Assembly (NCBI GenBank): GCA_030446715.1
Contig: JAUJMU010000003.1
Span: 62,001 to 126,000, forward strand
DNA length: 64,000 nt
Direction: 5' to 3'
Source of the DNA: Cytophagales bacterium
Lineage (GTDB): Bacteria > Bacteroidota > Bacteroidia > Cytophagales > 172606-1
Shown: piece by piece, positions 38,378 to 62,946 of the stretch
Layout: each line of letters begins with the position of its first letter
Position numbering within the stretch: position 1 is the stretch's first letter
Translations under genes and position numbers: made by a program
Notes under the pieces: generated by a model
Seen by the model: only the letters and a program-made list of their open reading frames with translations
The model's database searches: none
Told to the model about the DNA's origin: nothing

Positions 38378-38464
38378 TTGTCCGGGCCGGAGACGCTGCA
38401 CTTATTCATTTAATATTTCTCTCTGTTTACTTCCATCCACGTTTCTGCCATAGATCTGCTGAAC

Positions 38465-40594: not shown

Positions 40595-40648
40595 TGAATA
40601 CTTATGCAAAAAGTTGCTATTTGTATAAGTATTAATTACTCTTAGGGG

Positions 40649-41813
40649 ATGAAGGCAATCCACAAAACGTACAAATTTCGCATCCAACCCACTGACGAAC
40701 AGGCAGTTTTGCTTGCCAGGCATTTTGGATGCAGCCGTTTTGTGTACAATCACTTTCTGGCTGAACGCAGCCGTTACTATCTGGAAAACAAGAAGGGGTT
40801 GAATTACTACGACAATGCCGCTTCGCTTACCCTGCTCAAAAAGGAAAAGCAGTGGCTAAAAGAAGTCAATTCGCAGGCGTTGCAGGCTACGCTAAAGCAT
40901 TTGGAAGGGGCCTGCAATAGTTTTTTCCGTAAGCAGACGGAGTTTCCCGCTTCAGATCCAAGCATTTCAAACAGGCGTTTCGGGTGCCGCAATTCAACCG
41001 CTTGCAAAACGGACGGTTGTACATACCCAAGTTCAGTGAGGGTATTGCTGTGAACATTCACCGACCAGTTGAAGGAAAGATTCTGTTTTGCACCCTGACT
41101 AAAACCCCAACGGGTAAATACTTCGCTTCGCTGACCTGTGAGGTGGAGCATAAGCCTTTACCGCCAGTGCAAAATATGGTAGGGGTGGATTTGGGTATTA
41201 AGTCCCTACTGGTGGATTCGGTCGGTAAGCCGTATGCCAACCTAAAGACTACTGCTAAGTACGCCAAACGGCTTAAAAAGCCCAAAGGTGGTTAAAGAAC
41301 AAACAGTTAGGGTCTGCCTCCCGCAACAGGCAGAAACGCAAGGTTGCCCGTATTCACGAAAAGATGGCTAATGTCCGGGAGAACAACTTGCACCAGATTA
41401 CCGCTACGCTAATCAAGGAAAACCAACTGATAGCCGTGGAAGATTTGGCAGTCAAGAACCTGATGCAGAACCGTAAGCTATCCAAAGCCATTGCCGATGT
41501 GAGTTGGGGTAAGCTGCTTACCCTGCTGGAATACAAGGCTCAGTGGAATGACAGGCAAGTGGTTAAGGTGGACCGCTTCTTTCCTTCTTCCAAAACCTGT
41601 ACCCATTGCGGTTGGGTCAACCAACGCCTTACCCTTGCTGACAGAGAGTGGACGTGTGGAAATGGGCATACAGTGGATAGGGACGTGAATGCAGCGCAAA
41701 ATATACTCAAACAGGCTCTAAACAGCCTCTCGGCGGGAACCGTCGAGTACACGGGTGGAGAACCGAAAACTCGCAAGAGGAAGGTACGTTCTGCGAAGCC
41801 CGAAGCCCCCTGA
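40649..41813 (+). pseudogene. tnpB: TnpB RNA-guided nuclease gene with two frameshifts
   Basis: Three consecutive frames form one TnpB. Frame 1 (from 40649) gives MKAIHKTYKFRIQPTDEQAV to RKQTEFP. Frame 2 (about 40950-41278) gives SKHFKQAFRVPQFNRLQ and GVDLGIKSLLVDS. Frame 3 (about 41279-41813) gives RNRQKRKVARIHEKM and onward. RuvC residues are all visible: Asp in GVDLGIK, Glu in AVEDLAVKNL, Asp in TVDRDVNAAQN. The zinc finger has CTHCG but its second half reads CGNGH, with only one Cys. Each shift equals one missing base (near 40950 in a C run, near 41278 beside GCCC). No full-length nuclease can be made unless these are sequence errors. TnpB normally uses an RNA from the right end of the element. 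Confidence 0.85.
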
Positions 41814-42951: not shown

Positions 42952-43384
42952 AAGGAGGTTGATTTGTTGAATAGGTGTGTAAGTACCCGTCTGTAACGGA
43001 TCAAATAAAGTTAAGACCAAACCCGGGCAACAGTAAAAATTGTTGATTTGTTAATACCGGCGAAATGCCGGGGCAACACTGGCCGTTTACATTTGCAGCA
43101 TTCCTCATCATACTCCTGCTCTGCAAAACAGAGCTGCAAAGAGCACTGCCCCTGGCGGTGCTTTTTCTTTTGGCGGGAAATTATTGTAAAGGTGACTAAC
43201 CGCGCACGGACCATCCGGTGCTGATTTCCGGCAATGCTGTTAACCAAATGATAAAAGAAAGGTAACCTCTCCTGCGTGGCCGCTGACCCGCCATCCTGCT
43301 ACCTTTGGCCGGAAGAATTCCAACAACCATATTTGTATTTGTATGCTTTATTCAGTCAGTATCTATTTCAGGAAGGAAAAAGTG
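42952..43384. other. Intergenic region with a hairpin-rich segment
   Basis: No gene of normal size. It contains the candidate small RNA described separately (43057-43171) and a TACCTTTG at 43300-43307, matching the Bacteroidota -7 consensus and facing the small open frame at 43385. Confidence 0.45.
43057..43171 (+). ncRNA. Candidate small RNA: three hairpins and an intrinsic terminator
   Basis: CCGGC-GAAAT-GCCGG (43057-43071), GCTCTG-CAAAA-CAGAGC (43118-43134) and AGCACTGCC-CCT-GGCGGTGCT (43142-43162), followed by a U-rich run to 43171. A TACATTTG (43088-43095) could be a -7 element giving a transcript of about 70 nt from near 43100. No upstream plus-strand gene needs this terminator. No known RNA family is recognised. 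A 44-codon frame (43065-43199) overlaps and could be an alternative explanation. Confidence 0.35.
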
Positions 43385-43678: not shown

Positions 43679-43733
43679 TTAACAGAGATATAACCTTCCG
43701 GTAACGGGCCGGAAGAAGGATTTCCTCATTTTG
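43679..43733 (+). promoter_or_regulatory. PHO-box-like triple direct repeat before the phoD-like gene
   Basis: TTAAC (43679), ATAAC (43690) and GTAAC (43701) repeat at exactly 11-bp spacing. A -7-like TCATTTTG follows at 43726-43733, 25 bp after the start of the last repeat. PhoB/PhoP-type regulators bind direct repeats of this period: the cyanobacterial box is tandem TTAACC-like repeats, the Bacillus box TTAACA-like repeats. No site for a constitutive -33 element (TTTG) is seen, consistent with activator dependence. Confidence 0.55.
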
Positions 43734-43834
43734 CCCCGCATTTCCTGAGCACTGCATCAGCCGCCATTCCTCCGGGCGGTCAATGCTTCCCTTTTGCTTT
43801 TATTTTCTGATCACTTACCCTTAATCAATGACCG

Positions 43835-46800
43835 ATGTTTACCAAAATACCCGTTACCCCGTTTTCTTCACTCCGGAGGAAACAAATCTTATGGCTCACC
43901 CTGAGCCTGTGTTTGTGGGCATTCACCCTTTCGGCGCAGCCAAAGTACGACCCGTTGCTGAAACCCTTTTACCACGGCGTTGCCTCGGGTGACCCGATGG
44001 AAGACCGGGTAATTATCTGGACCCGCGTAACGCCCGAAAAGGAGGGGCTGGTAACCGTAACGTGGAAAGTAGCCACCGACCCGGCGCTGTCTCAGGTGGT
44101 CAGCTCAGGCGTAGTCACCACCTCAGCGGAACGCGACTACACCGTGAAGCTGGACGTAACCGGGTTGCAACCCAGTACCACCTACTACTACGGCTTTACG
44201 GCGCTGGGCCGCAACTCCCTCACCGGCCGTACCAAAACGGTTCCTGTCGGCGACGTTTCGCAGTTGCGCTTCGCGGTGGTTTCCTGCAACAACTTCGAGG
44301 GCGGCTACTTCAACGCCTTCGGCCGGATTGCCGGCCGCAGTGACCTGGATGCCGTGATTCACCTGGGTGATTATATCTACGAACAGGCGCAGGGCCTGTA
44401 CGGCGCGCCCAGCCTCATCACCACCGGCGAAAGGGCGGTGGAGCCGAAAAAGGAAATCGTGGCACTGGACGACTACCGCCAGCGGTACGCCTGGTACCGG
44501 CTCGACCCCGACCTGCGCCGGGCTCACCAGCAGCACCCGTTCATTACCGTGTGGGACGACCACGAATCGGCCAATGACTCCTACAGGGACGGAGCCGAAA
44601 ACCACCAGCCGGAAACGGAAGGCCCGTGGTCGGTCCGCAAGGAAGCCTCCCGGCGCGTGTACGACGAGTGGATGCCCATCCGGGGCAATGCCTCGCCCAT
44701 TTACCGGGTAAAACCCTTCGGCAACCTCGTGGACCTGATCAGGATAGATACCCGCATCGAGGGCCGTGACGAGCAGATCAACGACGTGACCAACCCGGCT
44801 CTCTACGCCCCGGACCGCACCATGCTCGGCCCCACGCAGCGGGAGTGGCTTTTTGAAAGACTGAAAACGTCTAAAGCCAAATGGAAGATCATCGGCAATC
44901 AGGTGATTTTCAGTGAGTTCAACGTGGGCTGGGCGGCTGCCGCGGCCCCGAACCTCGGCACCCCGGCGCAGCTCGAAAGCATTTTTCTCGACATCTGGGA
45001 CGGCTACCCGGCAGAGCGGAAACGGGTGACTGATTTTATCACCAGGGAGAAAATAGACAATGTCGTAATTCTCACCGGCGACTTTCACTCTTCCTTTGCC
45101 TTCGACGTGGCCCCTGATCCGTCGGTGTTCAGCGTGCCGGGCCAACTGCCCAATTACGACCCGGCCACCGGCAAGGGTTCGGTGGCCGTAGAATTTGCCA
45201 CCCCCAGTATCTCCTCGGCCAACTTCGATGAAAACCTGAGTCCGCAGCAGGCGGCCTTGTTTGAGGCGCTGTTCAACCAACCACTGCCGCCGGGGGCGGG
45301 TTCCTTTGCCGGCGTGAACCCGAACCCGCACCTGAAGTACGTGGACCTTGACCGGCACGGCTACTTTATCCTGGACCTGACGCCCGAAAGAGCCCAGGCC
45401 GACTGGTACTTTGTAAACAGCATACTCAAGCCCGACAACGGCGAAAAATTCGATGCCGGCTTCTTTACCGTGTCCGGCCAGAACCACCTGCAGCAAGCCG
45501 CTGCCGCCAGTGCGCCAAAAGTATCGGTGCCGGCACCGGCACCGGGTACTCCCATCACGGCCGGCACCGCTTCCGGACTGGACATCCGGCTGCTCGGCAC
45601 CTACGCATCCGGCATTTATGACGATGGCGGCGCTGAAATTCCCGCCTACGACCCGGGCTCTAAACGCCTCTTTGTGGTCAACGCCCGGGGGACGGTGGAT
45701 GTGCTGGACATTTCAGATCCGGCCAGCCCGGCCAAACTGTTTGCCATTGACATCAAAGCCATCACCGGCGGCACGCCCAACAGCGTAGACGTCAAAAACG
45801 GGCTGGTGGCCGTAGCCGTCGAACTCAGGGACGGCAGCGGCAACCAGGCACCCGGACTGGTGGCGTTTTTTCCGGCAGATATGGCCGCTGCCCCGTCAGC
45901 GCCGCAGCAGACCGTTCCCGCAGGCAACCTGCCCGACATGGTTACCTTCACGCCGGATGGCAAAAAGCTGCTCGTAGCCAATGAAGGCGAACCCGGGCCG
46001 ACAACCAATCCGGAGGGGTCGGTTTCCATAATTGATCTTTCGGGCGGCGTTGCCGGTGCAACCGTCCGGACCGTCGGCTTTGCGGCGTGGAACGGCCGGG
46101 AAAATGAACTCCGCGCCAAAGGCGTCCGGATTTTCCCCGGTCAGCAGGCGGCTCAGGACCTTGAGCCCGAATCCATTGCCGTAGCTCCCGACGGCAAAAC
46201 GGCCTTTGTGACCCTGCAGGAAGCCAACGCCTTTGCCGTAATTGACATTGCCGGTGCCGCCCTGCTGGATATTATTCCGCTGGGTTATAAAGACCACAGC
46301 CGGGGGCCGGCCAGTCTGGAGCAGTATAATTTCAATGAGCCGCCCATCGGCAAAAGAGCCGGCGGAGAAGACATCCTTTTCGGCGGACTTTCGGGCCTGT
46401 TCTTTGAGAAGGAGGAAAACGGAAAATCCATCTTCGTGACTGTGCCCGACCGGGGCCCCAACGGCGACGAGTCTCCCGCGGGCCGGCCGTTCCTGAAGCC
46501 GGATTACGTGGCTGAGGTATTCCGTTTTTCCCTCGACAAAGCCAGCGGGCAGATCACCATTCTGGAAAAAATCCCGTTGCGGCGGATGGACGGCAACGCG
46601 GAGAAAGCCATTACCGGTTTTCCCAATATTCCCGGCGTGGACGAAAAGCCGATTGACGAAAAGGGCAACCCGCTGCCTTATGATCCGTTCGGCGCTGATC
46701 TGGAGGGAATAGCCGTGGCCGCCGACGGCACCTTCTGGATGGTGGATGAATACCGCCCGGCGATTTACCATTTCAGCAAGGCGGGTATGCTGCTGCACCG

Positions 46801-49633
46801 CTACGTACCGAAAGGCACCGCTGCCCTTGCCGGGCAGCCGGAGGGTACTTTTGGCGAAGAAACCTTGCCCGCGGAGTACGGCAGGCGGCGATCCAACCGC
46901 GGTTTTGAGGCAGTGGCGCTGGACACCGACAAGGGTATTCTGTACGCCTTTATCCAGACACCGCTGGCCAATCCCAACCGGGCCGCTTCCGATGCCTCCG
47001 GCGTGATCCGGATGCTGGGCATTGATCCCGCCACGGGTCAGCCCGTTGCCGAATACATTTATTCCCTGGAAAAACCTGCCCTGCGGCTGACGGCAGTGGA
47101 TAAAATAGGTGACGCCGTGTACGACGCCAAAACCAAAGCTTTCTACGTGATCGAACGGGATGATCTGGCCCGGCCCGAAAACAAAAAATACATTTTCAAA
47201 GTGAATCTGACCGGTGCCACCAACCTGCTGGCACCGGACGCACCGGCCCTTTCTTCCGGCAAAACCCTTGAGCAGCACACGCTGGACGAACTGGCGGCCC
47301 TCGGTATCCGTACGGCTTTCAAAACGAAGGTGGTCAACCTGCCTTCCCTCGGTTACCTGCCCGGCGACAAACCCGAAGGACTGGCCCTGCTGCCCGATGG
47401 GTCGTTTGCCGTCCTGAACGACAACGATTTCGGCCTCGGCGGTCCGGAGCTTTCAGCGGTTGGGCTGGGCATTATTTCCTTCGGAGAAGGCAATACGCTG
47501 GATGCCAGTGACAATGACAACGCAATCAGCCTCCGCAACTGGCCGGTGCTCGGGATGTACATGCCTGACGGCGTGGCTTCTTACCAGGCAAATGGCCAGA
47601 CGTACTACATTACGGCCAATGAAGGCGATGCCCGCAGCGAAGACCGGCGCGTAAGTTCGCTTACCCTTGACCCGGTCGCCTTCCCGGATGCCTCGCTGAA
47701 AAACCCTGACAGACTGGGCCGTCTGAACGTTTCAAATAGCAACGGTGACCTTGACGGTGACGGTGATTATGATCAGCTCTACGCCTACGGTGCCCGGTCG
47801 TTTTCGGTCTGGGACAGCTTCGGCAATCAGGTTTTCGACAGCAGCGACGATCTGGAAAGAATCACCGCCGCCCGGTATCCCGGATTCTTCAACGCGTCCA
47901 ACACCAGCAACACCTTCGACAACCGCAGCGACGACAAGGGACCCGAGCCCGAGGGAGTCACCATCGGGCAGATCAACGGCCGCACCTATGCGTTTATCGG
48001 GCTGGAGCGGACCGGCGGCTTTATGGTCTACGACGTGACCAGTCCCGGTCAGGCGCAGTTTGTGGCGTACACCAACAACCGCAACTTTGAGGGTGTTCCC
48101 CGGGAAGGCACTGCCGGTGATCTGGGTCCGGAGGGGCTGATTTTCATTTCCGAAGCCGATAGCCCCAACGGACAGGCACTGATGGTGGTGGCCAACGAAG
48201 TCAGTGGCACCACGTCCATTTTCGGCGTGAGCCAGCCGACCGCCGTACTGGACTTTACCCTCGTGAATGCCGATACGGAAGGAGACATTGCGCCCCTCAC
48301 CGACGGCGCGGTCATTGACTACGCCAGACTGACGACCACCCGGCTGAACATCCGGGCCAACGTGAGGCCGGAAACGGTGGGCAGTGTGGTTTTCACCCTC
48401 AACGGTGAGATTTACAGCACGGAAAACAGCCCCTTTTACACCTTTGCCGGTGACCGGGAAGGCGACTACCAGCCGTGGACGCCGGCACCGGGCCAGTACA
48501 CCCTCACCGCTACGCCATTCGCCGAGGCGGCCGGCGGGGGATCGGCCGGCGTACCGCTGACGATTACTTTCAACGTTGTCAACTCCGCAAAAATCGCCCG
48601 GCTTGCCCTGGTCAACGCCCGGACTTCGGCAGATATTCAGACCATCAGAGACGGTGACGTGCTGAACCTGCGGACTTTGCCCACCCGACGCATCAATGTA
48701 CGGGCCGGCGCCGACCCCGAAACGGTGGGCAGCGTGGTGTTTACGCTGAAGATTGAAGACAACACCCAGATCCGGCAGGTGGAAAATCTGCCGCCTTACG
48801 CGCTGTTCGGCAACGTGGGGCTCACCGCCGATTATAACCCGTACCTGCTCCGGGAGGGCAGCTACCAGCTTACCGTTACGCCCTACGCCGAATCGTACGG
48901 ACAGGGGGCACCGGGTGAAACCTCGGTTGTCAACTTTACGGTGGTGAATGAGCCGGGCGTGGCCCGCCTGCTGCTGGTAGACATGAACACCGACCGCATC
49001 CTGACCGAAATCCGGGACGGAGATGTGATCAACGCGCAGGCGCTGGGCATTACCCCGGCCAGCAATCTGAACATTCAGGCGGTAACGGATCCGGGCCGCG
49101 TGGAAAAAGTCGTATTCGGTTTTGCCGGTAAAACAGGTTATTTCACCGATGACCGGCGGCCTTACGAACTGTTCGGCAATGCCGGTTCAGCAGCTTCCTC
49201 CTGGCGGCCGGCAGCCGGTACCTACGGCTTAAGAGCCACGCCTTTTTACAAGGCTAAGGGTAAGCTGGTAAACGGGACCGCACTGGCGGTGAATTTTACC
49301 ATTACCGGCAATGCCGCAGTAGCCGGTGCCGCCCGCACCGCCGCCGCGGATAGCGGACCAGGGGAAGCAGTAGCCGGCAAGCCGCTTGCGCTTTCCGTGT
49401 CGCCCAACCCGGTACGCGACGGGCTGACGATCCGGTTCGGGGAGCCGGTTTCCGGTGAGGTGCTGGTGATGGTGTACGACATCATGGGCCGCAAGACGTA
49501 CTTTGAGCGGGACTTCACGCTGGAGGGGCAGGATCAGGTGCAGGTGAATCTGTCGGGTCTGGCCAGCCGGTTCTACCTGCTGAAGGTCATCACCCCATCC
49601 GGCCGGCAGACGGTCCGGATTATAAAAGAGTAG
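43835..49633 (+). CDS. Giant T9SS-secreted phosphoesterase: PhoD + choice-of-anchor I + phytase-like esterase fusion
   Basis: 1932 residues. Signal peptide (to about 33, FTLSAQ). PhoD N-domain about 42-135 (YHGVASGDPMEDRVIIWTRV). PhoD metallophosphatase about 140-560: VVSCNN, IHLGDYIYEQ, VWDDHESAND, LTGDFHSSFAFD supply metal ligands. A beta-propeller-like choice-of-anchor I region starts about 582 (LDIRLLGTYASGIYDDGGAE) and appears to be interrupted by an esterase-like phytase domain (about 849-1165, GGLSGLFFEKEENG, VPDRGPNGDE), resuming to about 1465. Three repeats of about 120 residues follow (starts about 1469, 1585, 1706; each with a DG..I/L..L core and TLTATPF-like end). The T9SS type A sorting domain is at about 1852-1932 (SVSPNPVRDGLTIRF, MVYDIMGRK). 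PhoD enzymes cleave phosphomono- and diesters, so the protein likely attacks complex organophosphates at the cell surface. Confidence 0.85.
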   Translation: MFTKIPVTPFSSLRRKQILWLTLSLCLWAFTLSAQPKYDPLLKPFYHGVASGDPMEDRVIIWTRVTPEKEGLVTVTWKVATDPALSQVVSSGVVTTSAERDYTVKLDVTGLQPSTTYYYGFTALGRNSLTGRTKTVPVGDVSQLRFAVVSCNNFEGGYFNAFGRIAGRSDLDAVIHLGDYIYEQAQGLYGAPSLITTGERAVEPKKEIVALDDYRQRYAWYRLDPDLRRAHQQHPFITVWDDHESANDSYRDGAENHQPETEGPWSVRKEASRRVYDEWMPIRGNASPIYRVKPFGNLVDLIRIDTRIEGRDEQINDVTNPALYAPDRTMLGPTQREWLFERLKTSKAKWKIIGNQVIFSEFNVGWAAAAAPNLGTPAQLESIFLDIWDGYPAERKRVTDFITREKIDNVVILTGDFHSSFAFDVAPDPSVFSVPGQLPNYDPATGKGSVAVEFATPSISSANFDENLSPQQAALFEALFNQPLPPGAGSFAGVNPNPHLKYVDLDRHGYFILDLTPERAQADWYFVNSILKPDNGEKFDAGFFTVSGQNHLQQAAAASAPKVSVPAPAPGTPITAGTASGLDIRLLGTYASGIYDDGGAEIPAYDPGSKRLFVVNARGTVDVLDISDPASPAKLFAIDIKAITGGTPNSVDVKNGLVAVAVELRDGSGNQAPGLVAFFPADMAAAPSAPQQTVPAGNLPDMVTFTPDGKKLLVANEGEPGPTTNPEGSVSIIDLSGGVAGATVRTVGFAAWNGRENELRAKGVRIFPGQQAAQDLEPESIAVAPDGKTAFVTLQEANAFAVIDIAGAALLDIIPLGYKDHSRGPASLEQYNFNEPPIGKRAGGEDILFGGLSGLFFEKEENGKSIFVTVPDRGPNGDESPAGRPFLKPDYVAEVFRFSLDKASGQITILEKIPLRRMDGNAEKAITGFPNIPGVDEKPIDEKGNPLPYDPFGADLEGIAVAADGTFWMVDEYRPAIYHFSKAGMLLHRYVPKGTAALAGQPEGTFGEETLPAEYGRRRSNRGFEAVALDTDKGILYAFIQTPLANPNRAASDASGVIRMLGIDPATGQPVAEYIYSLEKPALRLTAVDKIGDAVYDAKTKAFYVIERDDLARPENKKYIFKVNLTGATNLLAPDAPALSSGKTLEQHTLDELAALGIRTAFKTKVVNLPSLGYLPGDKPEGLALLPDGSFAVLNDNDFGLGGPELSAVGLGIISFGEGNTLDASDNDNAISLRNWPVLGMYMPDGVASYQANGQTYYITANEGDARSEDRRVSSLTLDPVAFPDASLKNPDRLGRLNVSNSNGDLDGDGDYDQLYAYGARSFSVWDSFGNQVFDSSDDLERITAARYPGFFNASNTSNTFDNRSDDKGPEPEGVTIGQINGRTYAFIGLERTGGFMVYDVTSPGQAQFVAYTNNRNFEGVPREGTAGDLGPEGLIFISEADSPNGQALMVVANEVSGTTSIFGVSQPTAVLDFTLVNADTEGDIAPLTDGAVIDYARLTTTRLNIRANVRPETVGSVVFTLNGEIYSTENSPFYTFAGDREGDYQPWTPAPGQYTLTATPFAEAAGGGSAGVPLTITFNVVNSAKIARLALVNARTSADIQTIRDGDVLNLRTLPTRRINVRAGADPETVGSVVFTLKIEDNTQIRQVENLPPYALFGNVGLTADYNPYLLREGSYQLTVTPYAESYGQGAPGETSVVNFTVVNEPGVARLLLVDMNTDRILTEIRDGDVINAQALGITPASNLNIQAVTDPGRVEKVVFGFAGKTGYFTDDRRPYELFGNAGSAASSWRPAAGTYGLRATPFYKAKGKLVNGTALAVNFTITGNAAVAGAARTAAADSGPGEAVAGKPLALSVSPNPVRDGLTIRFGEPVSGEVLVMVYDIMGRKTYFERDFTLEGQDQVQVNLSGLASRFYLLKVITPSGRQTVRIIKE

Positions 49634-49663
49634 CAATCCCTGACCGGAAACTATCTTTCCAAG

Positions 49664-49692
49664 GCGTCACCCCTGTCGGGTGGCGCTTTTTT
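49664..49692 (+). terminator. Intrinsic terminator after the PhoD fusion gene
   Basis: GCGTCACCC (49664-49672), loop CTGTC, GGGTGGCGC (49678-49686), then six T (49687-49692). A classic stem with U-tract, 31 bp after the stop. Confidence 0.8.
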
Positions 49693-49795
49693 ATTCAAAG
49701 GGAGACCCGCACCCTTGCCTCATGATTTCATATAGCGGTTTTAAAGAAGCGGAAGATATAGCGGCCACTGACAAAGCCTTCCGGTCGGAGTGAGA

Positions 49796-49811
49796 TTAAC
49801 AGATTTTTACC
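49796..49811 (+). promoter_or_regulatory. Additional TTAAC/TTACC pair, 11 bp apart
   Basis: TTAAC at 49796 and TTACC at 49807, in the same orientation as the main array 50 bp downstream. It could be a secondary regulator site. Confidence 0.35.
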
Positions 49812-49847
49812 GGAAAGGAAATTATTTAATATCCCGGCAACCATCTT

Positions 49848-49903
49848 GTAATGATTTGATAACTGATGATTAACGTCTTTTCTGATCCGTGTGGATAGCT
49901 TTG
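49848..49903 (+). promoter_or_regulatory. PHO-box-like triple repeat and -7 element before susC
   Basis: GTAAT (49848), ATAAC (49859) and TTAAC (49870) are spaced exactly 11 bp apart. An exact TAnnTTTG match, TAGCTTTG, lies at 49896-49903, 26 bp after the start of the last repeat. The geometry is nearly the same as at 43679-43733. No -33 TTTG is present at the normal distance. Confidence 0.55.
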
Positions 49904-50104
49904 CGGGCGTCAGCAGTAACTGTTTAAATAGAATTATAAAATTTATTTATTCATTAAAAAGTTAATCTGCTGCGCCTGATCAACGGAAATTTGATTGCTC
50001 TCTTCCGTATTTCCACTTCTTATTATCCTAAGCCCTGCCTCATTCCCTGTCCGGCGGACAGGATCCTTTTTGTTTAACCGCAAACCATCAGACAATCCAT
50101 TGCC

Positions 50105-53100
50105 ATGAAAAGACGTGTACAAAAGAAAGGCTGGCAAAGCCTGATCCGCATCGGACTCCTGCATTTTGTGCTGACAGCCCCGCTTGCACCCACGGTGCCG
50201 GCTCAGGAGCCGGCCACCCAAACCAGTCAGCCCAGGGACCTGGTCGTCAGGGGAACCGTGCTGGACGCCGGCACCGGAGAACCGCTGCCGGGCGTAGCCG
50301 TGGTTGTAAAAGGCACTCAGCGGGGCACTGCCACCAATAGCGCCGGCGCGTACGAAATTGCCCTGTCCGATCCCGGCGCAGTGCTGGTATTCAGTTTTGT
50401 GGGTTACCTGCCCCAGGAGGTTCCGGTAGGCAATCGTACCCAGCTGGACCTGACGCTGCAGATTGATACCAAAGCCCTCAGCGAGGTGGTGGTGGTCGGC
50501 TACGGTACCCAGAAAAAAGTGAACCTGACCGGTGCCGTGGATCAGGTAACCGGCGACGTGCTCCAGAACCGGTCCGTACCCAACCTCACCCAGGGCTTGC
50601 AGGGGGTGATTCCCAACCTGAATCTGGTGCCCCGGGACGGAAAACCCATTCAATCTCCCGCTTATAATATCAGAGGCACGACTTCCATCGGGCAGGGAGG
50701 CAACGCCCTGGTGCTGATTGATAACGTGGAAGGGGATCCCAGCCGGCTCAATCCCAACGATATTGCCAGCATCACGGTGCTGAAAGATGCCGCGTCAGCC
50801 GCTATTTACGGGGCAAGGGGGGCGTTCGGGGTGGTACTCATCACCACCAGGAACCCGGTAAAAGACAAAACCAGTATTTCCTACTCCTGGAATCAGTCAA
50901 TCAAAAGCCCGACGGCCGTGCCGGATTTTGTGACCGACGGATACCTGTTTTCCAGCATGTTCAACGAATCATGGACGGCATGGAACAACTACTCACAGAC
51001 GCCCCAGAACGTGAACAAAACGGTGCGGTTTTCTCCGGCTTATCTAGCGGAGGCCGAACGCCGGGCCAATGATCCAAGCCTGCCTAAAACTGACGTGGGC
51101 CCCAACGGGGAATACGTGTATTACGAGAACATGGACTGGTACCGGGAGCTGTATAAAGACAATACCAGTGCCACCGAACATAATCTCTCTTTTTCGGGCA
51201 GCAGCGGCAAAGCGGATCTCTACGTGACGGGCCGGTATTTCGGGCAGAAGGGGCTGTTCCGCTACAACTCCGATGATTACAAACTGCTGAGTTTCCGGGT
51301 GAAGGGCTCCATTCAGATCTATCCGTGGCTGACCATCTCCAACAACGCCGACTATTCTGCCATGACCTATCATAACCCGCTGAACGTGGGCGAAGGAGGC
51401 GGCATCTGGCGGAACATCGGCGATGAAGGCCACACCATGGTGCCGATGTTTAACCCTGACGGTACGCTGACCTACTCGGCTGCTTATACGGTGGGCGATT
51501 TCTGGTACGGCAAAAACGGCATTGACATGAGCCGCCGCGTATTCCGGAACACGGCCGGGTTTGCCACGCAATTTTTCAACGATCAGTTCCGCGTCAAGGG
51601 TGACTTTACCTTTCAGAACACGGACAACAACGAAACCAGAACCCGGGTGCCGGTGCCCTACAGCCGGATACCAGGCGTAATCGAATACGTGGGCAATAAC
51701 ACCAACGACATCCGCAAGCTCAACCGCGAAACCCAGTACCTGACCACCAACCTGTACAGCGAATACGAACCCCGGCTGGAAGGAAATCACTACTTCAAAG
51801 GTTTGCTTGGCTTCAACTATGAACAGTCTACCTTTACGGGTCTGGAAGCCTTGCGGAACGGGCTGATTTTCCCCGATGCGCAGGACATCAGCCTGGCCTT
51901 GGGCCAGTCCATCGTGACCGACGGTGAGTATGAGAAGTGGGCCATTGCCGGCGGCTTCTACCGGCTCAACTACGCCTTCCGCGACAAATATCTGCTTGAA
52001 CTGAATGGCCGCTACGACGGCTCGTCTAAATTTCCTGCCAGCCAGCGGTTTGCCTTCTTCCCCTCCGTGTCGGCCGGCTGGCGGATTTCCAATGAATCAT
52101 TCTGGAAAGTCTCCGACCGGCTCATCAGTGAGCTGAAAATCAGGGCTTCTTATGGTTCACTGGGAAATGGCAACATTGCTTCGTACGCTTTCCAGGAGCA
52201 ATTCCGGATTACTCAGTCCAGCCGGGTTCTTAACGGCGTACGGCCCCAGCAGACGGGTGTGCCCGGTGTGCTGCCAAACGGCCTTACCTGGGAAACCTCT
52301 ACCACGCAAAACCTTGGCCTGGACTTTGGAATGCTGTCAAACCGCCTGACATTTTCGGGAGATGCCTACATCCGCAAGACAACCGATATGTTTACGGTGG
52401 GTGTGTCGCTGCCGGCTGTATTCGGAGCGGCTGTACCCCGGGGCAACTACGCCGATCTGAGAACCACCGGCTGGGAAGCTGTACTTGGCTGGCAGGACGG
52501 ATTCAAGGTAGCTTCCAAGCCATTTAATTACAACGTCAGATTCACCCTTGCCGACTACCAGGCAGAGATCACCAAATACAATAATCCCGAAAAAAGACTA
52601 TCCGATTACTACGCAGGCCAGAAGGTGGGTGAAATCTGGGGGTACGTTACGGAAGGCTTTTTTACTTCGCCCGAAGACATTACCAACTCACCCAAACAAA
52701 CTCTGTTCAGGGCCTCCACCAGCGGACAGTGGCTGCCGGGAGACATCAAATTCCGGGATGTAAACGGAGACGGGGTAATCAACAACGGGGCCAACACGGC
52801 AGATGATCCCGGTGACCGGATTGTGATCGGCAATGCCTCCCCCCGCTACACGTACGGAATCATGCTGGGCGCCGACTGGAACAACTTCTTTTTCTCCACC
52901 TTTTTTCAGGGCGTAGGCAAGCAGGACTGGTGGCCGGGCCGGGAGGCAGCTACTTTCTGGGGCCAGTACAACCGGCCCTACAACAAAATCCCAACCTGGC
53001 AGCTGGGCAATATCTGGTCCGAGGAAAACCCGGATGCCTACCTGCCCCGCTACCGCGGCTATACCGCCGAGAACAGTGCCGGCGTACTCCGCTTTGAGCA

Positions 53101-53383
53101 GACCCGGTACCTGCAGAATGCCGCTTACATCCGGCTGAAGAACATCCAGATCGGGTACAACCTGCCCGAAGGCCTGATCAGTAAAGCAGGCATGGGCAAT
53201 GCAAGGGTATACCTGACCGGCGAAAACCTCTGGTCGTGGTCTCCGCTCTACCGGCGCAGCAAAGATCTGGATGTGGAAAGCATCGGAGGGTCTGACCGGG
53301 AGCTTACCAACGGCACAAATGGCAACGGCAACAATTATCCGATTCTCAGAAGCTTCACGGCCGGATTAGCCGTCACCTTCTAG
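50105..53383 (+). CDS. SusC/RagA-family TonB-linked outer-membrane receptor
   Basis: 1092 residues. N-terminal export signal (about 1-37). CarboxypepD_reg-like domain about 48-125 (VVRGTVLDAGTGEPLPGVAV, FSFVGYLPQEVPVG). The SusC signature LSEVVVVGYGTQKKVNLTGA is followed by the plug (NIRGTTSIGQGGNALVLID, ITVLKDAASAAIYGARGAFG) and a long barrel ending FTAGLAVTF. With SusD it forms a lidded active importer for oligomeric nutrients. Next to phosphoesterases rather than glycoside hydrolases, its cargo is probably phosphorylated or nucleotide-like (inference). The susD gene follows after 50 bp. Confidence 0.93.
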   Translation: MKRRVQKKGWQSLIRIGLLHFVLTAPLAPTVPAQEPATQTSQPRDLVVRGTVLDAGTGEPLPGVAVVVKGTQRGTATNSAGAYEIALSDPGAVLVFSFVGYLPQEVPVGNRTQLDLTLQIDTKALSEVVVVGYGTQKKVNLTGAVDQVTGDVLQNRSVPNLTQGLQGVIPNLNLVPRDGKPIQSPAYNIRGTTSIGQGGNALVLIDNVEGDPSRLNPNDIASITVLKDAASAAIYGARGAFGVVLITTRNPVKDKTSISYSWNQSIKSPTAVPDFVTDGYLFSSMFNESWTAWNNYSQTPQNVNKTVRFSPAYLAEAERRANDPSLPKTDVGPNGEYVYYENMDWYRELYKDNTSATEHNLSFSGSSGKADLYVTGRYFGQKGLFRYNSDDYKLLSFRVKGSIQIYPWLTISNNADYSAMTYHNPLNVGEGGGIWRNIGDEGHTMVPMFNPDGTLTYSAAYTVGDFWYGKNGIDMSRRVFRNTAGFATQFFNDQFRVKGDFTFQNTDNNETRTRVPVPYSRIPGVIEYVGNNTNDIRKLNRETQYLTTNLYSEYEPRLEGNHYFKGLLGFNYEQSTFTGLEALRNGLIFPDAQDISLALGQSIVTDGEYEKWAIAGGFYRLNYAFRDKYLLELNGRYDGSSKFPASQRFAFFPSVSAGWRISNESFWKVSDRLISELKIRASYGSLGNGNIASYAFQEQFRITQSSRVLNGVRPQQTGVPGVLPNGLTWETSTTQNLGLDFGMLSNRLTFSGDAYIRKTTDMFTVGVSLPAVFGAAVPRGNYADLRTTGWEAVLGWQDGFKVASKPFNYNVRFTLADYQAEITKYNNPEKRLSDYYAGQKVGEIWGYVTEGFFTSPEDITNSPKQTLFRASTSGQWLPGDIKFRDVNGDGVINNGANTADDPGDRIVIGNASPRYTYGIMLGADWNNFFFSTFFQGVGKQDWWPGREAATFWGQYNRPYNKIPTWQLGNIWSEENPDAYLPRYRGYTAENSAGVLRFEQTRYLQNAAYIRLKNIQIGYNLPEGLISKAGMGNARVYLTGENLWSWSPLYRRSKDLDVESIGGSDRELTNGTNGNGNNYPILRSFTAGLAVTF

Positions 53384-53433
53384 TCCGTTGATCCTGTACA
53401 CATCACTACAACATTTATCCATCTGAAACAGAC

Positions 53434-55209
53434 ATGAAGCTATATTATTGGACATTTTTACTCACGGGCCTGCTGTTTTTTGCCGGATGCCGGGAGCTGG
53501 ATCAGGAGCCGGAGGCTACCGCCACCAAAGAGGCGGTGTTTAGCAGCGAAGGAGGTCTGGCACTCTACGCAAATTCCTTTTATAACATTCTGCCTTCTGC
53601 AAACAGCATCATCCGGGGCGACGAAATGGCTGATTACGCCGCCCGCACCCAGGTACCTGAATTTATCCGGACCGGGGCCTTCAGCGCAAGGCAAAGTTCC
53701 GGGTGGGACTGGGCCCCTTTGCGCAACATCAATTACTTTATTGAAAACTGCAACAACCCCGCCATTGCCCCGGCCACCCGGCAGCATTACCTCGGCCTGG
53801 CGCGGTTTTTCAGGGCGTGGTTTTACTTCGATAAAGTGAGGCGGTTTGGGGACGTGCCCTGGATCAACAAACCACTGGCCATTGATGATCCGGCCCTTTT
53901 CAACGCCCGTAATTCCCGTACCCTTGTGATGGATTCGGTGCTGGCTGACCTTGACTATGCGGGTGAGAACATCCGTACCACCAGTGACAACTCCCGCACG
54001 CTGATCACCAAATGGGTCGCGTATGCCTTCAAATCCAGGGTATGCCTGTTTGAGGGCACTTTCCGCAAGTACCAGACGGATTATAACCTCGGCGGCACCG
54101 CCAGCGGGTGGCTTACCCAAGCAGCCGACGCTGCCGAAAAGGTAATGAAGGAAGGAGGCTTTACCCTGAACCAGGCCGGCGGTCCGGATCAGTCTTACCG
54201 TCAGCTGTTTATCAGCAAAGCCCCGGTCTCTTCGGAAATCATTCTGGCCGCCGCCGTTGATCCGGCGTTAAGCGTATTCAATGACGCCAACTGGTGGTGG
54301 ACCAGCGCTACCTACGGAGCCCGGGTAAGCCTGATCAGAACGTTTGTAAACACCTATCTGGATCTGGACGGGACGCCCTTCACGGACAATCCTGGTTATC
54401 AGACCATGCCTTTTGCCCAGGAAGTAAAAAACCGGGACAAGCGTCTGCAGCAAACCATCCGGATGGGGGATTATAAACGCATCAACGGCGGCAGAGAGGA
54501 GCCGGCACCGCCCGTTTTCTCCTACACCTACACGGGCTATCAGCCCATCAAGTGGACGCTTGACGACATTTATTACGACGGAGGCAGCCGCAATGACAAT
54601 TCCATTTCCACGCTCCGCTACGCGGAAGTGCTGCTCAACTACGCCGAAGCCAAAGCAGAACTGGGCACCCTGACCGACGAAGACTGGGCCAGGACTGTCG
54701 GTGCCCTGCGCCGGAGAGCCGGCATTACGGGTGGATTGTCCGCCCGCCCGGCCGTGGTTGACCCTTATCTTCAGGCCAATTATTTCCCCTCCATTTCCAA
54801 TCCGGTCCTGCTGGAAGTGAGAAGGGAACGGGGCATCGAGCTGGTCCTTGAAGGCTTACGCTTTCACGACCTGATCCGCTGGAAACGCGGCGAGTTACTG
54901 GAGCAGGAGTGGAACGGATTTTACGTTCCCGCGCTTGATCAGCCACTCGACCTGAATGAAGATGGCAAAAACGATGTGGTGTTTTACCAGGGGAGGCCCG
55001 CTACCCAGCTACCGGGAGTAACCTACATCAACGTAGCCGAAACGGTAAACGGAAACCCTAACCCGCAACGGCTGAAAAACGGTACTTCGGGAGAATTGAC
55101 CTGGCTCAATACGATTCCCCGGAAGTGGGAAGATAAGTTCTACCTGTTTCCGATACCCGAAAATGACCGGCTGATGAATCCCGGACTGGAGCAGAATCCG
55201 GGCTGGTAG
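53434..55209 (+). CDS. SusD/RagB-family surface lipoprotein
   Basis: 591 residues. Lipoprotein signal (LLFFAGCREL). SusD family features: N-terminal tetratricopeptide-like helices (QHYLGLARFFRAWFYFDKVR, FGDVPWINKPL), ALRRRAGI, ERGIELVLEGLRFHDLIRWK and the C-terminal YLFPIPENDRLMNPGLEQNP motif. It caps the SusC barrel and captures substrate. It is second in the susCD pair, and the EEP-family hydrolase gene follows 144 bp later behind a hairpin. Confidence 0.93.
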   Translation: MKLYYWTFLLTGLLFFAGCRELDQEPEATATKEAVFSSEGGLALYANSFYNILPSANSIIRGDEMADYAARTQVPEFIRTGAFSARQSSGWDWAPLRNINYFIENCNNPAIAPATRQHYLGLARFFRAWFYFDKVRRFGDVPWINKPLAIDDPALFNARNSRTLVMDSVLADLDYAGENIRTTSDNSRTLITKWVAYAFKSRVCLFEGTFRKYQTDYNLGGTASGWLTQAADAAEKVMKEGGFTLNQAGGPDQSYRQLFISKAPVSSEIILAAAVDPALSVFNDANWWWTSATYGARVSLIRTFVNTYLDLDGTPFTDNPGYQTMPFAQEVKNRDKRLQQTIRMGDYKRINGGREEPAPPVFSYTYTGYQPIKWTLDDIYYDGGSRNDNSISTLRYAEVLLNYAEAKAELGTLTDEDWARTVGALRRRAGITGGLSARPAVVDPYLQANYFPSISNPVLLEVRRERGIELVLEGLRFHDLIRWKRGELLEQEWNGFYVPALDQPLDLNEDGKNDVVFYQGRPATQLPGVTYINVAETVNGNPNPQRLKNGTSGELTWLNTIPRKWEDKFYLFPIPENDRLMNPGLEQNPGW

Positions 55210-55242
55210 CCGGGGCTGGGCGAAATATGCTATGTATACAGT

Positions 55243-55296
55243 GGTAACTTTGCGGCTGGCTAGCGGAGTTTGACTCCGGCGAGCCGTAAAGTTACC
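55243..55296. terminator. Extended hairpin between susD and the EEP gene
   Basis: GGTAACTTT...CGGCT (55243-55257) pairs with AGCCG...AAAGTTACC (55282-55296), with an inner CGGAGT-TTG-ACTCCG (55264-55278). It probably attenuates transcription after susD, or is a dispersed palindromic repeat. There is no U-tract. Confidence 0.5.
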
Positions 55297-55353
55297 ATCT
55301 CATCTTTGGGTCACTTCTCAATCTTCTGATCAATTTTCAACAATTACTACTAC

Positions 55354-56196
55354 ATGCGACTAAGCGTTTTGCTGCTGCTTTATTTCCTGTTCCTCCTGCA
55401 AAATGTATCTGCCCAGAAGAATGCGCCCATCTGCGTAGCTTCCTATAACCTGCGTTACAATACGGCCAGTGACGGGGTGAACGCCTGGCCCAACCGGAAG
55501 GAAATGGTAAAAGGCCTGATCCGCTACCACGGATTTGATATATTCGGCACCCAGGAAGTGCTGCGCGATCAGATGAATGATCTGGCAGGGATGGAAGAGT
55601 TTGCCTTCACGGGCAGAGGCCGCGATGACGGCAAAGAGGCCGGCGAACATTCAGCGATCTTCTACCGCAAAGATCGTTTTAAGTTGCTCCGGTCGGGAGA
55701 TTTCTGGTTAAGTGAAACGCCGGACAAACCCTCGCTGGGCTGGGACGCTACATGCTGCCACCGGATCTGTTCATGGGCAAAATTCAGGGACCGGCAGACG
55801 GGCAAGGAATTTTACTTTTTCAGCGCCCACTTTGACCACCAGGGAGTGGAGGCCCGCCGGCAATCGGGTAAACTGATGACGGAGAAAATAAAGGAAATAG
55901 CCGGTAAAGAGCCGGTTATCTTTGTGGGGGATCTGAATTCTACTCCCGACACGGAGCAGGTTCAGGCCATTCAGACCGTGCTCAGCGACGCCTACCGCGT
56001 ATCGGCTATTCCCCCGTACGGCCCGGAGGGAACCTTCAATGGCTTCAAGCTGGATGCGCCACTCGAAAACCGGATAGACTACGTGTTTGTCAGCAAGGGA
56101 ACAGAGGTGCTCAAATACGCCGTACTGACTGATCACAAGGAGCAGCGTTACCCTTCGGATCATTTACCGGTAGTGGTAAAGGCAATCATCCGGTGA
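55354..56196 (+). CDS. Secreted endonuclease/exonuclease/phosphatase-family hydrolase
   Basis: 280 residues with a signal peptide (to about 20, LLQNVSAQ). The EEP fold active site is complete: Asn/Tyr near ICVASYNLRYN, Glu in FGTQEVLRDQM, His in FFSAHFDHQG, Asp/Asn in VGDLNSTPDT and the final SDHLPVVVKA. The family includes DNase I-like nucleases, sphingomyelinases and inositol-phosphate phosphatases. Extracytoplasmic location next to susCD and alkaline phosphatase points to a role in stripping phosphate from nucleic acids, lipids or inositol phosphates. The substrate is not decided by sequence. Confidence 0.87.
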   Translation: MRLSVLLLLYFLFLLQNVSAQKNAPICVASYNLRYNTASDGVNAWPNRKEMVKGLIRYHGFDIFGTQEVLRDQMNDLAGMEEFAFTGRGRDDGKEAGEHSAIFYRKDRFKLLRSGDFWLSETPDKPSLGWDATCCHRICSWAKFRDRQTGKEFYFFSAHFDHQGVEARRQSGKLMTEKIKEIAGKEPVIFVGDLNSTPDTEQVQAIQTVLSDAYRVSAIPPYGPEGTFNGFKLDAPLENRIDYVFVSKGTEVLKYAVLTDHKEQRYPSDHLPVVVKAIIR

Positions 56197-56243
56197 TACC
56201 GGGATGGCTCCGGAAGCGTCATTGTTCAAAATTTCTATTTTAC

Positions 56244-58097
56244 CTATTTTTTGGCTTCCGGGTGGTATTTCCCAATGATCTGCATGATCTTCCGGAAAAT
56301 CTCCGTGTTCTCGTACACGCCCCGGAAGTCAAGGGAATGCGGGCCATAGGCAAATACGGGCACGGCTACCGCAGAATGATCGCCGGTGCTGAAGTGCCCT
56401 GCCACGTATCCCTGCTCAAAATCGCCATCCAGCAGACTTAATCCACCCGTTTCGTGGTCAGCCGTGACGATGACCAGCGTTTCCCCGTCCTCGTCGGCAA
56501 ACTTCATGGCTTCACCTACCATGCGGTCAAAGTCCAGCATTTCCTGCACCACGTAGCTCATCTGGTTGGCGTGTCCGCCCCAGTCAATCTGCGCCCCTTC
56601 GGCCATGATAAAAAACCCTTTCTCATTTTTTCCGAGGGTGGCAATTGTCTTGTTCAGCGACCTGGTGAGAAAATCGCCCCGGCCTTTGGAGCGGGCTACT
56701 ACCGCCTTGCTGTCCAGCACGACAAACTGCCCCGACGAAAGGGTATCCAGTGCGGCAAACTGGCTGGCGACCCGGTATCCTTTCCGCCCGAGTTCAGACA
56801 CCAGATTACGGCCGTCTTTGCGGGCGGCGAAAGCATCGTAGTTGCCGCCGATCAGGATGCTCACCGGGCTGTTGAGGAAGTCGGCCGCAATGGCTTCGCT
56901 CCGGCTCCGTTCGGGCTGGTGGGCGTAGAAGCAGGCCGGCGTAGCATCGGTGATGTCGCCCGACGAAATCAGGGCACTTTTCATGCCCCTGGAATGAATC
57001 AGATCCGGAATGGCCGGGTGAGGTTTTCCGGCCTGATCTACCCCGATAAACCGGTTGTTGGTTTTCTGCCCGGTGGCAATGGCCGTGGCACCTCCCGCCG
57101 AATCGGTGATATAACTATCGGATGAAGCCGTTTTGGCAAAACCAATATTGAGCATGTTGAACAGGTTTAACTGTCCGGACATGGCCGTATAAGCCGCGTA
57201 CATCTGCGCAAGACCCATGCCGTCGCCGATCAGCAAAATTACATTTCTGACTTTCTTTTGCTGATCATTGTTCACGTACTTAGGGGCGTACAGGGCGTGT
57301 TTTTCCGTATTCCGGTATTCGGTGTCGGGCAGTTTGAGAAGATAATGCGTCAGCTCCGTTACCTGATCAGTCCCCAGCCAGTCCACTTCCATGCGCATGA
57401 GGGTTTTCCACGCATTCACCCCTTCGGGCGTGGCCCAGAAGCGGATCTTCTGTCCCTGCCGGTGCACACTGTCGATCAACTGCTCTATCTTCTCCCGTTC
57501 CGCCTGCACGATCAGCCCTTTGCCGTTCCAGGCGGTGTACTTCCTGAAGTTGTCGCTTACCAGCGCAATCCGGCTGGCCTGTCCGGGCGAATACCGCTGC
57601 CCCGGCCGGCCGTCAAAGTAAAAGTAAGCCGGGTACTTTCCCCAGGCGGATGCCGGTGGCACATCCCCGCTGATGACTACCCGGATGGCGGGGTTTTGGA
57701 TAATGTCCGGGTAGGCGGCCAGCTTCCTGGCCAGCGCCTGCATGGTAGAGGTACCTTCCGTTTTCAGGTCAATGAACAGCTGCAGCGTATCGTCCCCCTG
57801 TGCGTAAAGCTTGCCGGCATTCTTTTGGAGGGTGGCCTGCAGGGGTTTCAGGTAGAGGGCTTCCAGCGTCCGGTCCGGCCGGATGTCCTGCCGCGTGTGG
57901 GCAACGTACAGTTCCCCGTTCTGCAGAAATACGTCGGCTTCAATGGAACCCGCCTGCCGGGTAAAAGCGGCATGAAACGGAATGGGCTGTTCGTAGTCAT
58001 TGTGCGCATGCACGTTGGCCGGAGAGTACCTGCGTTGTGCCGGTAATGTCTGACACAACAGACCAGCTGCCAGTATCGCAAAAAGTTGTTGCTTCAA
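56244..58097 (-). CDS. GDPD/PLC-like and alkaline phosphatase fusion
   Basis: About 617 residues using TTG at 58097, which gives a clean signal peptide (MKQQLFAILAAGLLCQTLPA). The open frame reaches 58244 but the extra part lacks features. N-terminal TIM-barrel phosphodiesterase-like domain about 24-270: VHAHNDYEQPIPF, SIEADVFLQNGELYVAHT, LFIDLKTEGTS, IRFWATPEGVNAWKTLM. C-terminal alkaline phosphatase about 290-617: VILLIGDGMGLAQ, nucleophile Ser in ITDSAGGATAIATG, EGAQIDWGGHAN, VTADHETGG and GDHSAVAVPVFAYG supply the metal ligands. The fusion could cleave a diester and then remove the phosphate from its product. It is convergent with the EEP gene, 47 bp apart. Confidence 0.87.
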   Translation of the reverse strand: MKQQLFAILAAGLLCQTLPAQRRYSPANVHAHNDYEQPIPFHAAFTRQAGSIEADVFLQNGELYVAHTRQDIRPDRTLEALYLKPLQATLQKNAGKLYAQGDDTLQLFIDLKTEGTSTMQALARKLAAYPDIIQNPAIRVVISGDVPPASAWGKYPAYFYFDGRPGQRYSPGQASRIALVSDNFRKYTAWNGKGLIVQAEREKIEQLIDSVHRQGQKIRFWATPEGVNAWKTLMRMEVDWLGTDQVTELTHYLLKLPDTEYRNTEKHALYAPKYVNNDQQKKVRNVILLIGDGMGLAQMYAAYTAMSGQLNLFNMLNIGFAKTASSDSYITDSAGGATAIATGQKTNNRFIGVDQAGKPHPAIPDLIHSRGMKSALISSGDITDATPACFYAHQPERSRSEAIAADFLNSPVSILIGGNYDAFAARKDGRNLVSELGRKGYRVASQFAALDTLSSGQFVVLDSKAVVARSKGRGDFLTRSLNKTIATLGKNEKGFFIMAEGAQIDWGGHANQMSYVVQEMLDFDRMVGEAMKFADEDGETLVIVTADHETGGLSLLDGDFEQGYVAGHFSTGDHSAVAVPVFAYGPHSLDFRGVYENTEIFRKIMQIIGKYHPEAKK

Positions 58098-58313
58098 AGT
58101 TTGATGGGTAAGACAGGTAAGGAACAGTTGTACTTTTCCTGAGGTTGTCCGCAGGCTGGGCGGCTCCTCAGGCAAATATCCTGTATTTTTCAATGGTCCA
58201 TGTAATGGTCCATGAACTGCCACCCGCTTAAAGCCTTGCAGCAATAGTCACTCAGGTGCAGATTCACCGGGACAAATTAGCAATATATAGGGCAAAACCG
58301 GGTTGATAAGCGT

Positions 58314-58340
58314 TTTACATTACTGTTAACCTTTTGTTAC
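58314..58340 (-). promoter_or_regulatory. PHO-box-like triple repeat upstream of the phosphatase fusion
   Basis: On the minus strand GTAAC (58340-58336), TTAAC (58329-58325) and GTAAA (58318-58314) repeat at exactly 11 bp, in the direction of the gene at 58097. An A/T-rich stretch with TAATTTG (about 58273-58279) could hold the start site. Because GTTAAC is self-complementary, a plus-strand array (TTAC, TTAAC, TTAC at 58315, 58326, 58337) can also be read. Confidence 0.5.
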
Positions 58341-58399
58341 CGGCCCATAATTTAGAATAAACGCTATCAAAGAGGTTAAAGCTTTAATCCACTTCCCCG

Positions 58400-60861: not shown

Positions 60862-62946
60862 ATGAAACCAGCTCTGAACACAGTTTCTTATCCCATTTTG
60901 TCGCTGTTGCTGCTCGTGCTGATGCAGTTGCCGGCGGGGGCTCAGGTTCCCCAGCAGTTCAATTACCAGGGCGTAATCCGCGACAAAGACGGGAACCCCA
61001 TTACGGGGGGAAATGCCAGCGTCCGGTTTACCATTCTGGAAGGCTCGGCCAACGGCCGGGCCGTTTACACCGAAACGCAAAGGGTGGAGATCAATAACCC
61101 ATTCGGGTTGTTTACGCTGGCCATTGGTACGGAAGCGAACTTCAGGAATATCAACTGGGCAACGGGGCAGAAGTTTCTGCAGGTAGAAGCCGACCCGACC
61201 GGGGGCAGCCAGTATGAGTTGATCGGACGTGTACAACTGCTTTCGGTACCGTACGCCCTCTACGCCGAAAGGGCGGGCAACAGTTCCGGAAACGTCAGCT
61301 TTGAAGGCGGTACCGGCATCAGCGTGGCCACCCGCCAGGCGGATAGCAATACGATTGTTACCATTACGAACGCAGCACCCGGAGGAGGCGCTGGCAGCCC
61401 CGGCCCTCCCGGCCCCAAAGGGGATAAAGGGGACCCGGGGCCCGCCGGTTCCCAAGGACCGGCCGGGTCACCGGGACCCAAAGGCGATAAAGGCGATCCC
61501 GGTCCGGCCGGGCCTCAAGGTCCCCCTGGCCCCGCGGGAGGTGGTGGGAATGGCATTCCCGGTCCGGCCAGTCCCACCTATACGGCAGGAACTGGCATTG
61601 ACATTGGCGCCGACAACCGGATTACGAATACGGCTCCGGACCAGCCCATCACGCTGACCGGCACGGGGGGCGCTACCGTCACGGGTACGTATCCTAATTT
61701 CACCATCAACGCCCGGGAAGCGGGTGGTACTCTGTTCACGGGTACCAATCAGTTCGTGCCTCGCTTTACCACCAGCAACAATGCGGTTACCTTAGAAAAC
61801 TCTACCCTCCTCAACACCGGCGGCGGGTTACTCGTGCAGGGCGCGGGCACTTACGACTTCGGCCAGGTAAACAGCGGAACCCGCCTGATGTGGATTCCCC
61901 AGCGGGCTGCCTTCCGGGCCGGCGTGGTAACGGGCAATGAGTGGGACCTCAACAACATTGGGGAAAACTCCGTGGCGATGGGCGAAAACACCCTTTCGAC
62001 CGGCCGGGGTTCGGTAGCACTGGGCCGCGACAGCCGGGCCCGTGGACAAGGGACTACTGCCCTCGGTAACAGTGCATTCGCCAGGGAAGAAGGGGCCACG
62101 GCCCTGGGATGGGCCGCCATTGCCAACGGGAAGGGATCCCTTGCCCTGGGTACGCACGTGTACGCACTGGGGAATTACTCTACCGTGATCGGCACTTTCG
62201 CCACCACGTCCCGGACCCGGCAGCTCAACCGGGAATCCATTGACCAGCAGGGAAGCGACAACGGCTACGCGGGTAATTTTATGATCACCGACGGCCACGG
62301 GGGTGACCGCGGGGACTTGCAGGGAAATGGTTCCACGGAGGCGCCGGGCCGGTTCCTGTTTGCCGAACGTGACCACCAGTTTACGGCCCGCTTTTCGGGC
62401 GGCTACCGGCTCTTTACCAACAGTGCCACCAGCGTGGGGGTCCGCCTGGAGTCCGGCGCCAATAGCTGGAGTACCCTTTCCGACGGGCGCCGCAAAGAGA
62501 ACTTCAAGCCCGTAAACGGCGAAGCAATGCTGGAAAAGATTGGTCGTTTCCGCCTGACGACCTGGAACTACCGGGGCCAGGACGCCCGGCAGTACCGTCA
62601 CTACGGACCAATGGCGCAGGATTTCTTTGCGGCTTTCGGCAACGACGGCATTGGCGTGATTGGCAATGACACCACAATCAATACGGCTGACTTTAATGGT
62701 ATCAATTTTGCTGCGATAAAAGCCTTGGTGGACCGTACCGAGCAGCTCAGGCAGAAAGACCGGGAACTGGAAGCGCTGCTCAGGCAGTTGAAGGCCGAGC
62801 ACGACCGCAATGAACAGTTGCAGGCGGAACTGTCGGCGCAGCAAAAGCGAACCCAAAAGTTGGAGAGTGATCTTGAAATGATCAAAGCGCACGTGGGCCT
62901 TTCTCCCCAGGCCAGCACTCAGCCGGGGCGAAGGAAGGACAAGTAG
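60862..62946 (+). CDS. Collagen-like, YadA-head, S74 chaperone tail-fibre-like surface protein
   Basis: 694 residues. Signal peptide (to about 28). N-domain about 29-150 ([20 protein letters not shown], common in Bacteroidota S74 proteins). Collagen-like Gly-X-Y run about 177-230 with [12 protein letters not shown] repeats. YadA-like left-handed head repeats about 370-450 ([39 protein letters not shown]). Peptidase_S74 intramolecular chaperone about 545-640 ([33 protein letters not shown]), then a C-terminal coiled coil ([20 protein letters not shown]). Together these predict a trimeric fibre that may self-cleave at the S74 domain. It is not phage: no phage genes are nearby and it carries its own signal peptide. 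Surface adhesion is likely. Confidence 0.85.

Follow-up and report, generated by a model that had tools for sequence, protein, structure and literature searches.

A SusC/SusD importer pair lying among genes for phosphoesterases raises the question of whether the pair serves phosphorus or carbon. Such an arrangement occupies positions 43679-58340 of a 64,000-nucleotide stretch of DNA from a Cytophagales bacterium (the whole analysed stretch is called the window here). According to the original prediction, the simplest reading of its five genes is an organophosphate-utilisation locus.

Gene content and organization of the locus

The identities of the five genes were borne out by Pfam and NCBIfam, with small corrections.

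43835-49633, forward strand: PhoD/phytase-like T9SS giant, 1932 aa (Pfam/NCBIfam)
50105-53383, forward strand: SusC-type TonB-dependent transporter (TIGR04056, 819 bits)
53434-55209, forward strand: SusD-type surface binding lipoprotein (PF07980, E 2e-37)
55354-56196, forward strand: EEP-family exported hydrolase, third gene of the cassette (PF03372)
56244-58244, reverse strand: exported fusion of a GDPD-like domain with alkaline phosphatase, GDPD-AP (PF00245, E 3e-60)

The genes are arranged in three transcription units: the PhoD giant, SusC-SusD-EEP, and GDPD-AP. SusC, SusD and EEP are codirectional with gaps of 50 and 144 bp, whereas the GDPD-AP fusion, present as predicted, is a convergent gene outside the SusCD operon. 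The expected lack of glycoside hydrolases was confirmed by Pfam and NCBIfam, and since neither these nor lyases were found in 43.7-58.3 kb, the locus does not qualify as a polysaccharide utilisation locus for glycans.

The giant was found to contain PhoD_N and PhoD (E 2e-105), a choice-of-anchor I domain (choice_anch_I, E 3e-121) matched in two stretches, a Phytase-like domain (E 2e-47) that splits the latter, and a T9SS sorting tail at its end (Pfam/NCBIfam). Its description as a secreted phosphoesterase stands for PhoD, the one clear phosphoesterase domain, whereas "phytase-like" is the name of a domain and phytase activity is putative. No STN domain was matched in SusC by the Pfam scan, indicating the short form. 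In EEP a signal peptide was recognised by eye and neither a T9SS tail nor a lipobox was seen, so that the enzyme is probably periplasmic. Its nearest named structure is the mannosyl-6-phosphatase PDB 4c1r, matched at E 1e-61 over nearly the whole domain with catalytic-type motifs retained; the relation is one of sequence, activity on mannose-6-phosphate groups being putative, and mannan-degrading enzymes are lacking in the locus. In the fusion, the N-terminal GDPD-like domain scores 20.9 bits against PF13653, below the cut-off of 27, while the ortholog at locus L062 reaches 41.6 bits and passes it; the true start of the fusion is probably an internal TTG near 58097.

Other features were noted around the locus. 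An IS200-like Y1 transposase with broken pieces resembling its TnpB partner lies just upstream (40196-41813). At 35180-39871 a second importer-phosphoesterase pair consists of a TonB-dependent receptor (OMP_b-brl_4) followed by a type I phosphodiesterase/nucleotide pyrophosphatase, and at 60862-62946 a surface-type protein combines a collagen-like stretch, YadA-head repeats and an endosialidase-chaperone (S74) end.

Repeat arrays upstream of the three units

Each of the three units is preceded by an array of 11-bp direct repeats, which is the new observation at this locus.

43680-43705, forward strand: PHO-box-like array before the PhoD giant, three 11-bp repeats, exact TAAY-N7-TAAY-N7-TAAY
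49827-49874, forward strand: PHO-box-like array before SusC, five 11-bp repeats; overlapping matches, one exact and two with one mismatch
49896-49903, forward strand: TAGCTTTG, candidate -7 element near the SusC array, fitting TAnnTTTG
58314-58350, reverse strand: PHO-box-like array upstream of the GDPD-AP gene, two overlapping one-mismatch matches on the sense strand

TAnnTTTG is the consensus of the Bacteroidota -7 element. The exact pattern TAAY-N7-TAAY-N7-TAAY occurs twice in the window against 0.02 expected, ahead of the PhoD giant and SusC, but it was in these two promoters that the pattern was first noticed, so the two matches are not independent evidence. When up to one mismatch is allowed and the 400 bp before each start are read on the sense strand, 3 of the 37 ORFs of at least 150 aa carry an array, and they are exactly the heads of these three units. 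For the GDPD-AP array, local shuffles do as well in 1% of cases. A position weight matrix built from five PhoB promoters placed the SusC array 2nd and the PhoD array 8th among the window matches, with a broad null distribution.

The geometry of the window arrays equals that of the PHO box, defined as 11-nt direct repeats (PMC4415409), and at least two such repeats upstream, the sequence criterion of a Pho regulon, are present. Furthermore, they lie near the promoter, and their core, TAAC/TTAACA, resembles TTTAACA, the core of the motif obtained by DAP-seq for PhoP of Riemerella anatipestifer, which belongs to the same phylum (PMC9603813); the likeness to both extends to arrays upstream of a PhoB-family regulator gene in other genomes. 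The passages of PMC9603813 consulted do not link the PhoP regulon to SusCD phosphorus loci, and PhoB binding in the window lineage is a prediction.

Another one-mismatch array was seen at 43241-43266; some 30-40 bp further on follow a TACCTTTG element and a short ORF starting near 43342. Repeats at 35057-35093 were considered as a box for the TonB receptor/phosphodiesterase pair and rejected, with none on the sense strand; because they face away from it, the pair was not counted in.

Conservation of the SusC-SusD-EEP cassette

A SusD-alignment scan of genome contigs yielded 80 orthologous loci from Cytophagales, Sphingobacteriales, Chitinophagales and a few Bacteroidales. EEP is the gene directly after SusD in 71 of them, and at two more a diverged EEP-like protein takes this place (L080 by Pfam, L098 by eye). 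No regular enzyme other than EEP was found across the 80 loci. SusC-SusD-EEP is a real conserved cassette. Further phosphoesterases adjoin it in places: GDPD-AP or GDPD at L062, L071 and L099, type I phosphodiesterases at L078 and L080 (Pfam) and at L079 and L101 (BLAST to the window protein), and metallophosphatases at L042 and L103. The operon at L080 continues with apparent sugar epimerase and sugar transporter genes, and L111-L115 with a weak GH32-like match.

The five genes together are not conserved as a single unit: a relative of the PhoD giant was found beside SusC-SusD-EEP in 0/80 orthologous loci and a GDPD/AP relative in 3/80. Full-length GDPD-AP fusions are rare, being present in the own genome and 5 others among 247. 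In four of those five other genomes, the fusion is adjacent to, or within the operon of, a SusCD pair; one of these neighbourhoods includes a PI-PLC, and another has close by an EEP 57% identical to that of the window. GDPD-AP, SusCD and EEP recur together at L062, L099 and L217.

Based on 4c1r as the nearest named EEP structure, and on the apparent sugar-catabolism genes in the L080 operon, the leading guess for the ligand imported by SusC-SusD is a phosphorylated sugar or glycan, a guess given about an even chance; the structure match points to such compounds over inositol phosphate or nucleotides. The AlphaFold model of SusD has a mean pLDDT of 68, falling below 50 at residues 274-300 and 341-390, and is weak at the likely ligand site; the best Foldseek match of this low-confidence model is 3qnk, a SusD-like protein with no ligand given in its title.

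Arrays beyond the window and the regulator

The array was tested outside the window because it had been noticed first in two window promoters. Expected counts were obtained by shuffling the dinucleotides of every upstream region, and genomes that are related do not count as independent samples; on this basis, among orthologous SusC genes without a sigma/anti-sigma pair, an array with at most one mismatch precedes 13/43 against 1.5 expected, and an exact array 7/43 against 0.1. Among those with sigma/anti-sigma genes the array is found in 2/34. Both congeneric orthologs of the PhoD giant are preceded by exact arrays, and PhoD-type genes across the order carry the array in 7 of 28 cases (0.8 expected); for alkaline phosphatase genes in general there is no enrichment (2/29, 0.6 expected).

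In five genomes an exact array stands 43-49 bp before the start of a response regulator gene, and for the two of these regulators that were scanned, the best NCBIfam models were two PhoB families, below their cut-offs. At L147 an array lies upstream of a metallophosphoesterase gene followed by a glycosyltransferase; this gene order matches the plcP/glycosyltransferase operon of phosphate starvation (PMC4796936), so that the metallophosphoesterase may be regarded as PlcP-like. PlcP-like/glycosyltransferase operons in 18 further genomes carry the array with up to one mismatch in 11 cases against 0.5 expected. Counts of strict TAAC arrays gave 27 in 11 other genomes versus 17 in the reversed control, with a comparably mixed outcome in five relatives; since such counts alone prove little, the downstream genes were used as evidence.

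The own genome encodes a PhoB-family regulator 57% identical to the regulator that bears arrays elsewhere, with no strict array upstream of its own gene. The two-component system at 32057-34056 was considered as PhoBR and set aside, its regulator matching PmrA best and a better PhoB candidate being present elsewhere in the genome. PhoU was found neither in the own genome nor in 11 of 12 others, and for this reason the PhoB-family and PlcP-like promoters, instead of PstSCAB-PhoU, were taken as the reference for the box. Pst has been reported lacking in plant-associated Bacteroidetes, and the absence of PhoU is as expected if SusCD-type uptake replaces Pst.

Elsewhere in the own genome, in a further SusCD pair (L135 7101-12094, on C2), SusC is preceded at 87 bp by an exact array; the neighbours of the pair are malectin/kelch T9SS proteins, not phosphatases. 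An intergenic region with exact arrays precedes a T9SS GDPD + Phytase-like gene at L136 4168-11475 (C16); a PI-PLC-C1 enzyme and part of a TonB receptor also belong to this cluster, close to a long array, a PUSI-like content. The C7 484-507 kb region (L218 10746-12953 and L137 5650-6913) contains, with other genes in between, a second EEP gene preceded by a one-mismatch array, part of an alkaline phosphatase, and a GDPD lipoprotein gene whose two exact arrays overlap.

Comparison with known phosphate utilisation systems

The Phosphate Utilisation Systems PUSI and PUSII were first described in Flavobacterium johnsoniae by Lidbury et al. 2020 (PMC8115612), and PUSII is strongly induced there by phosphate depletion (PMC8115612). 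As in these systems, the SusCD pair of the window stands beside phosphomono- or diesterases, not carbohydrate-active enzymes. The PUSII architecture, PusCD2 with an alkaline phosphatase of PF00245 plus PF13653, is likewise found here, with PF13653 sub-threshold in the window and above threshold at L062. In contrast to PUSII, GDPD-AP forms a convergent unit of its own, EEP is the enzyme that accompanies SusCD in the operon, a T9SS PhoD giant is added, and induction by phosphate depletion, observed there, is predicted here from the arrays alone. In the searched text of the PUS papers no EEP is named in a PUS, and their EEP, Fjoh_0074, is an orphan gene. Against a role for EEP in phosphorus supply, the knock-out of an F. 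johnsoniae EEP left phosphomonoesterase activity unaffected (PMC8812569). Overall the phosphorus reading holds, and the locus is best seen as a variant, from the Cytophagales, of these known systems.

Proposed mechanism and alternatives

It is quite probable that this is a phosphate-starvation locus of the PUS kind, switched by PhoB and built of three units. The claim of organophosphate utilisation has gained strong new support from the PHO-box-like arrays on exactly these three units, the conserved SusC-SusD-EEP cassette and the PUSII-type association of SusCD with GDPD-AP. A mechanism is proposed in which, at low phosphate, PhoB would bind the 11-bp TAAY/TTAACA arrays and turn on the three units. 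The T9SS-exported PhoD/phytase-like giant would free phosphate extracellularly; SusD would capture and SusC import an organic phosphate compound, with a phosphorylated sugar or oligosaccharide the likeliest candidate, from which EEP would strip the phosphate in the periplasm; and the exported GDPD-AP would cleave diesters of the glycerophosphodiester type and then monoesters.

An unlikely alternative is a glycan locus in which phosphate is only a decoration: a phosphorylated glycan, for instance phosphomannan, would enter through SusCD as a carbon source and have its phosphate trimmed by EEP. The relation of EEP to the mannosyl-6-phosphatase would suit this, as would the sugar genes at L080, the GH32-like match at L111-L115 and the many orthologous cassettes with sigma/anti-sigma genes and SusC of STN-bearing length, the usual substrate-sensing control. 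Against it, the locus has no glycoside hydrolase, and the window copy shares its PHO-box-like array with 13/43 of its sigma-less relatives. Scavenging of nucleic acids, with EEP as the nuclease that cuts fragments of DNA or RNA after import, is improbable: the EEP superfamily includes nucleases, and NCBIfam gave weak matches to xth and MnuA, but these fall far below their cut-offs, in contrast to the match to the mannosyl-6-phosphatase structure. A chance neighbourhood of three unrelated units, conceivable in a genome with 38 SusD-family matches and from the missing PhoD-giant relative beside the cassettes, is least probable of all, given an array common to the three units and to no other larger ORF of the window and the recurrence of GDPD-AP, SusCD and EEP together in other genomes.

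Control of the cassette and its significance

Beyond the phosphate-starvation reading of the window copy, the cassette as a family appears under two kinds of control. All 30 SusC proteins of STN-bearing length (>1150 aa, a length criterion only) are accompanied by sigma/anti-sigma genes, and at the array-only loci SusC is of the short form. On the SusD tree the sigma label requires 16 changes, of which strongly supported branches force 13; regulation of the cassette has therefore changed repeatedly. In roughly half of the orthologous cassettes sigma/anti-sigma genes take the place of the array, so that not every copy belongs to a phosphorus system. A tentative reading, given somewhat less than an even chance, is that the cassette is a minimal importer plus phosphatase for phosphorylated sugars or glycans across much of Bacteroidota, repeatedly switched between two inputs, namely sigma/anti-sigma with an STN-bearing SusC and a PhoB box with an STN-less SusC.

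In the open-access literature, phosphorus loci built on SusCD so far rest on work in Flavobacterium. A cassette with EEP as its sole regular enzyme narrows the ligand to a phosphate-ester compound. If the reading of repeated switching is true, one and the same cassette supplies some species with carbon and others with phosphorus. A PHO box recognisable at the level of sequence would predict which of the dozens of SusCD pairs per Bacteroidota genome serve phosphorus and which carbon.
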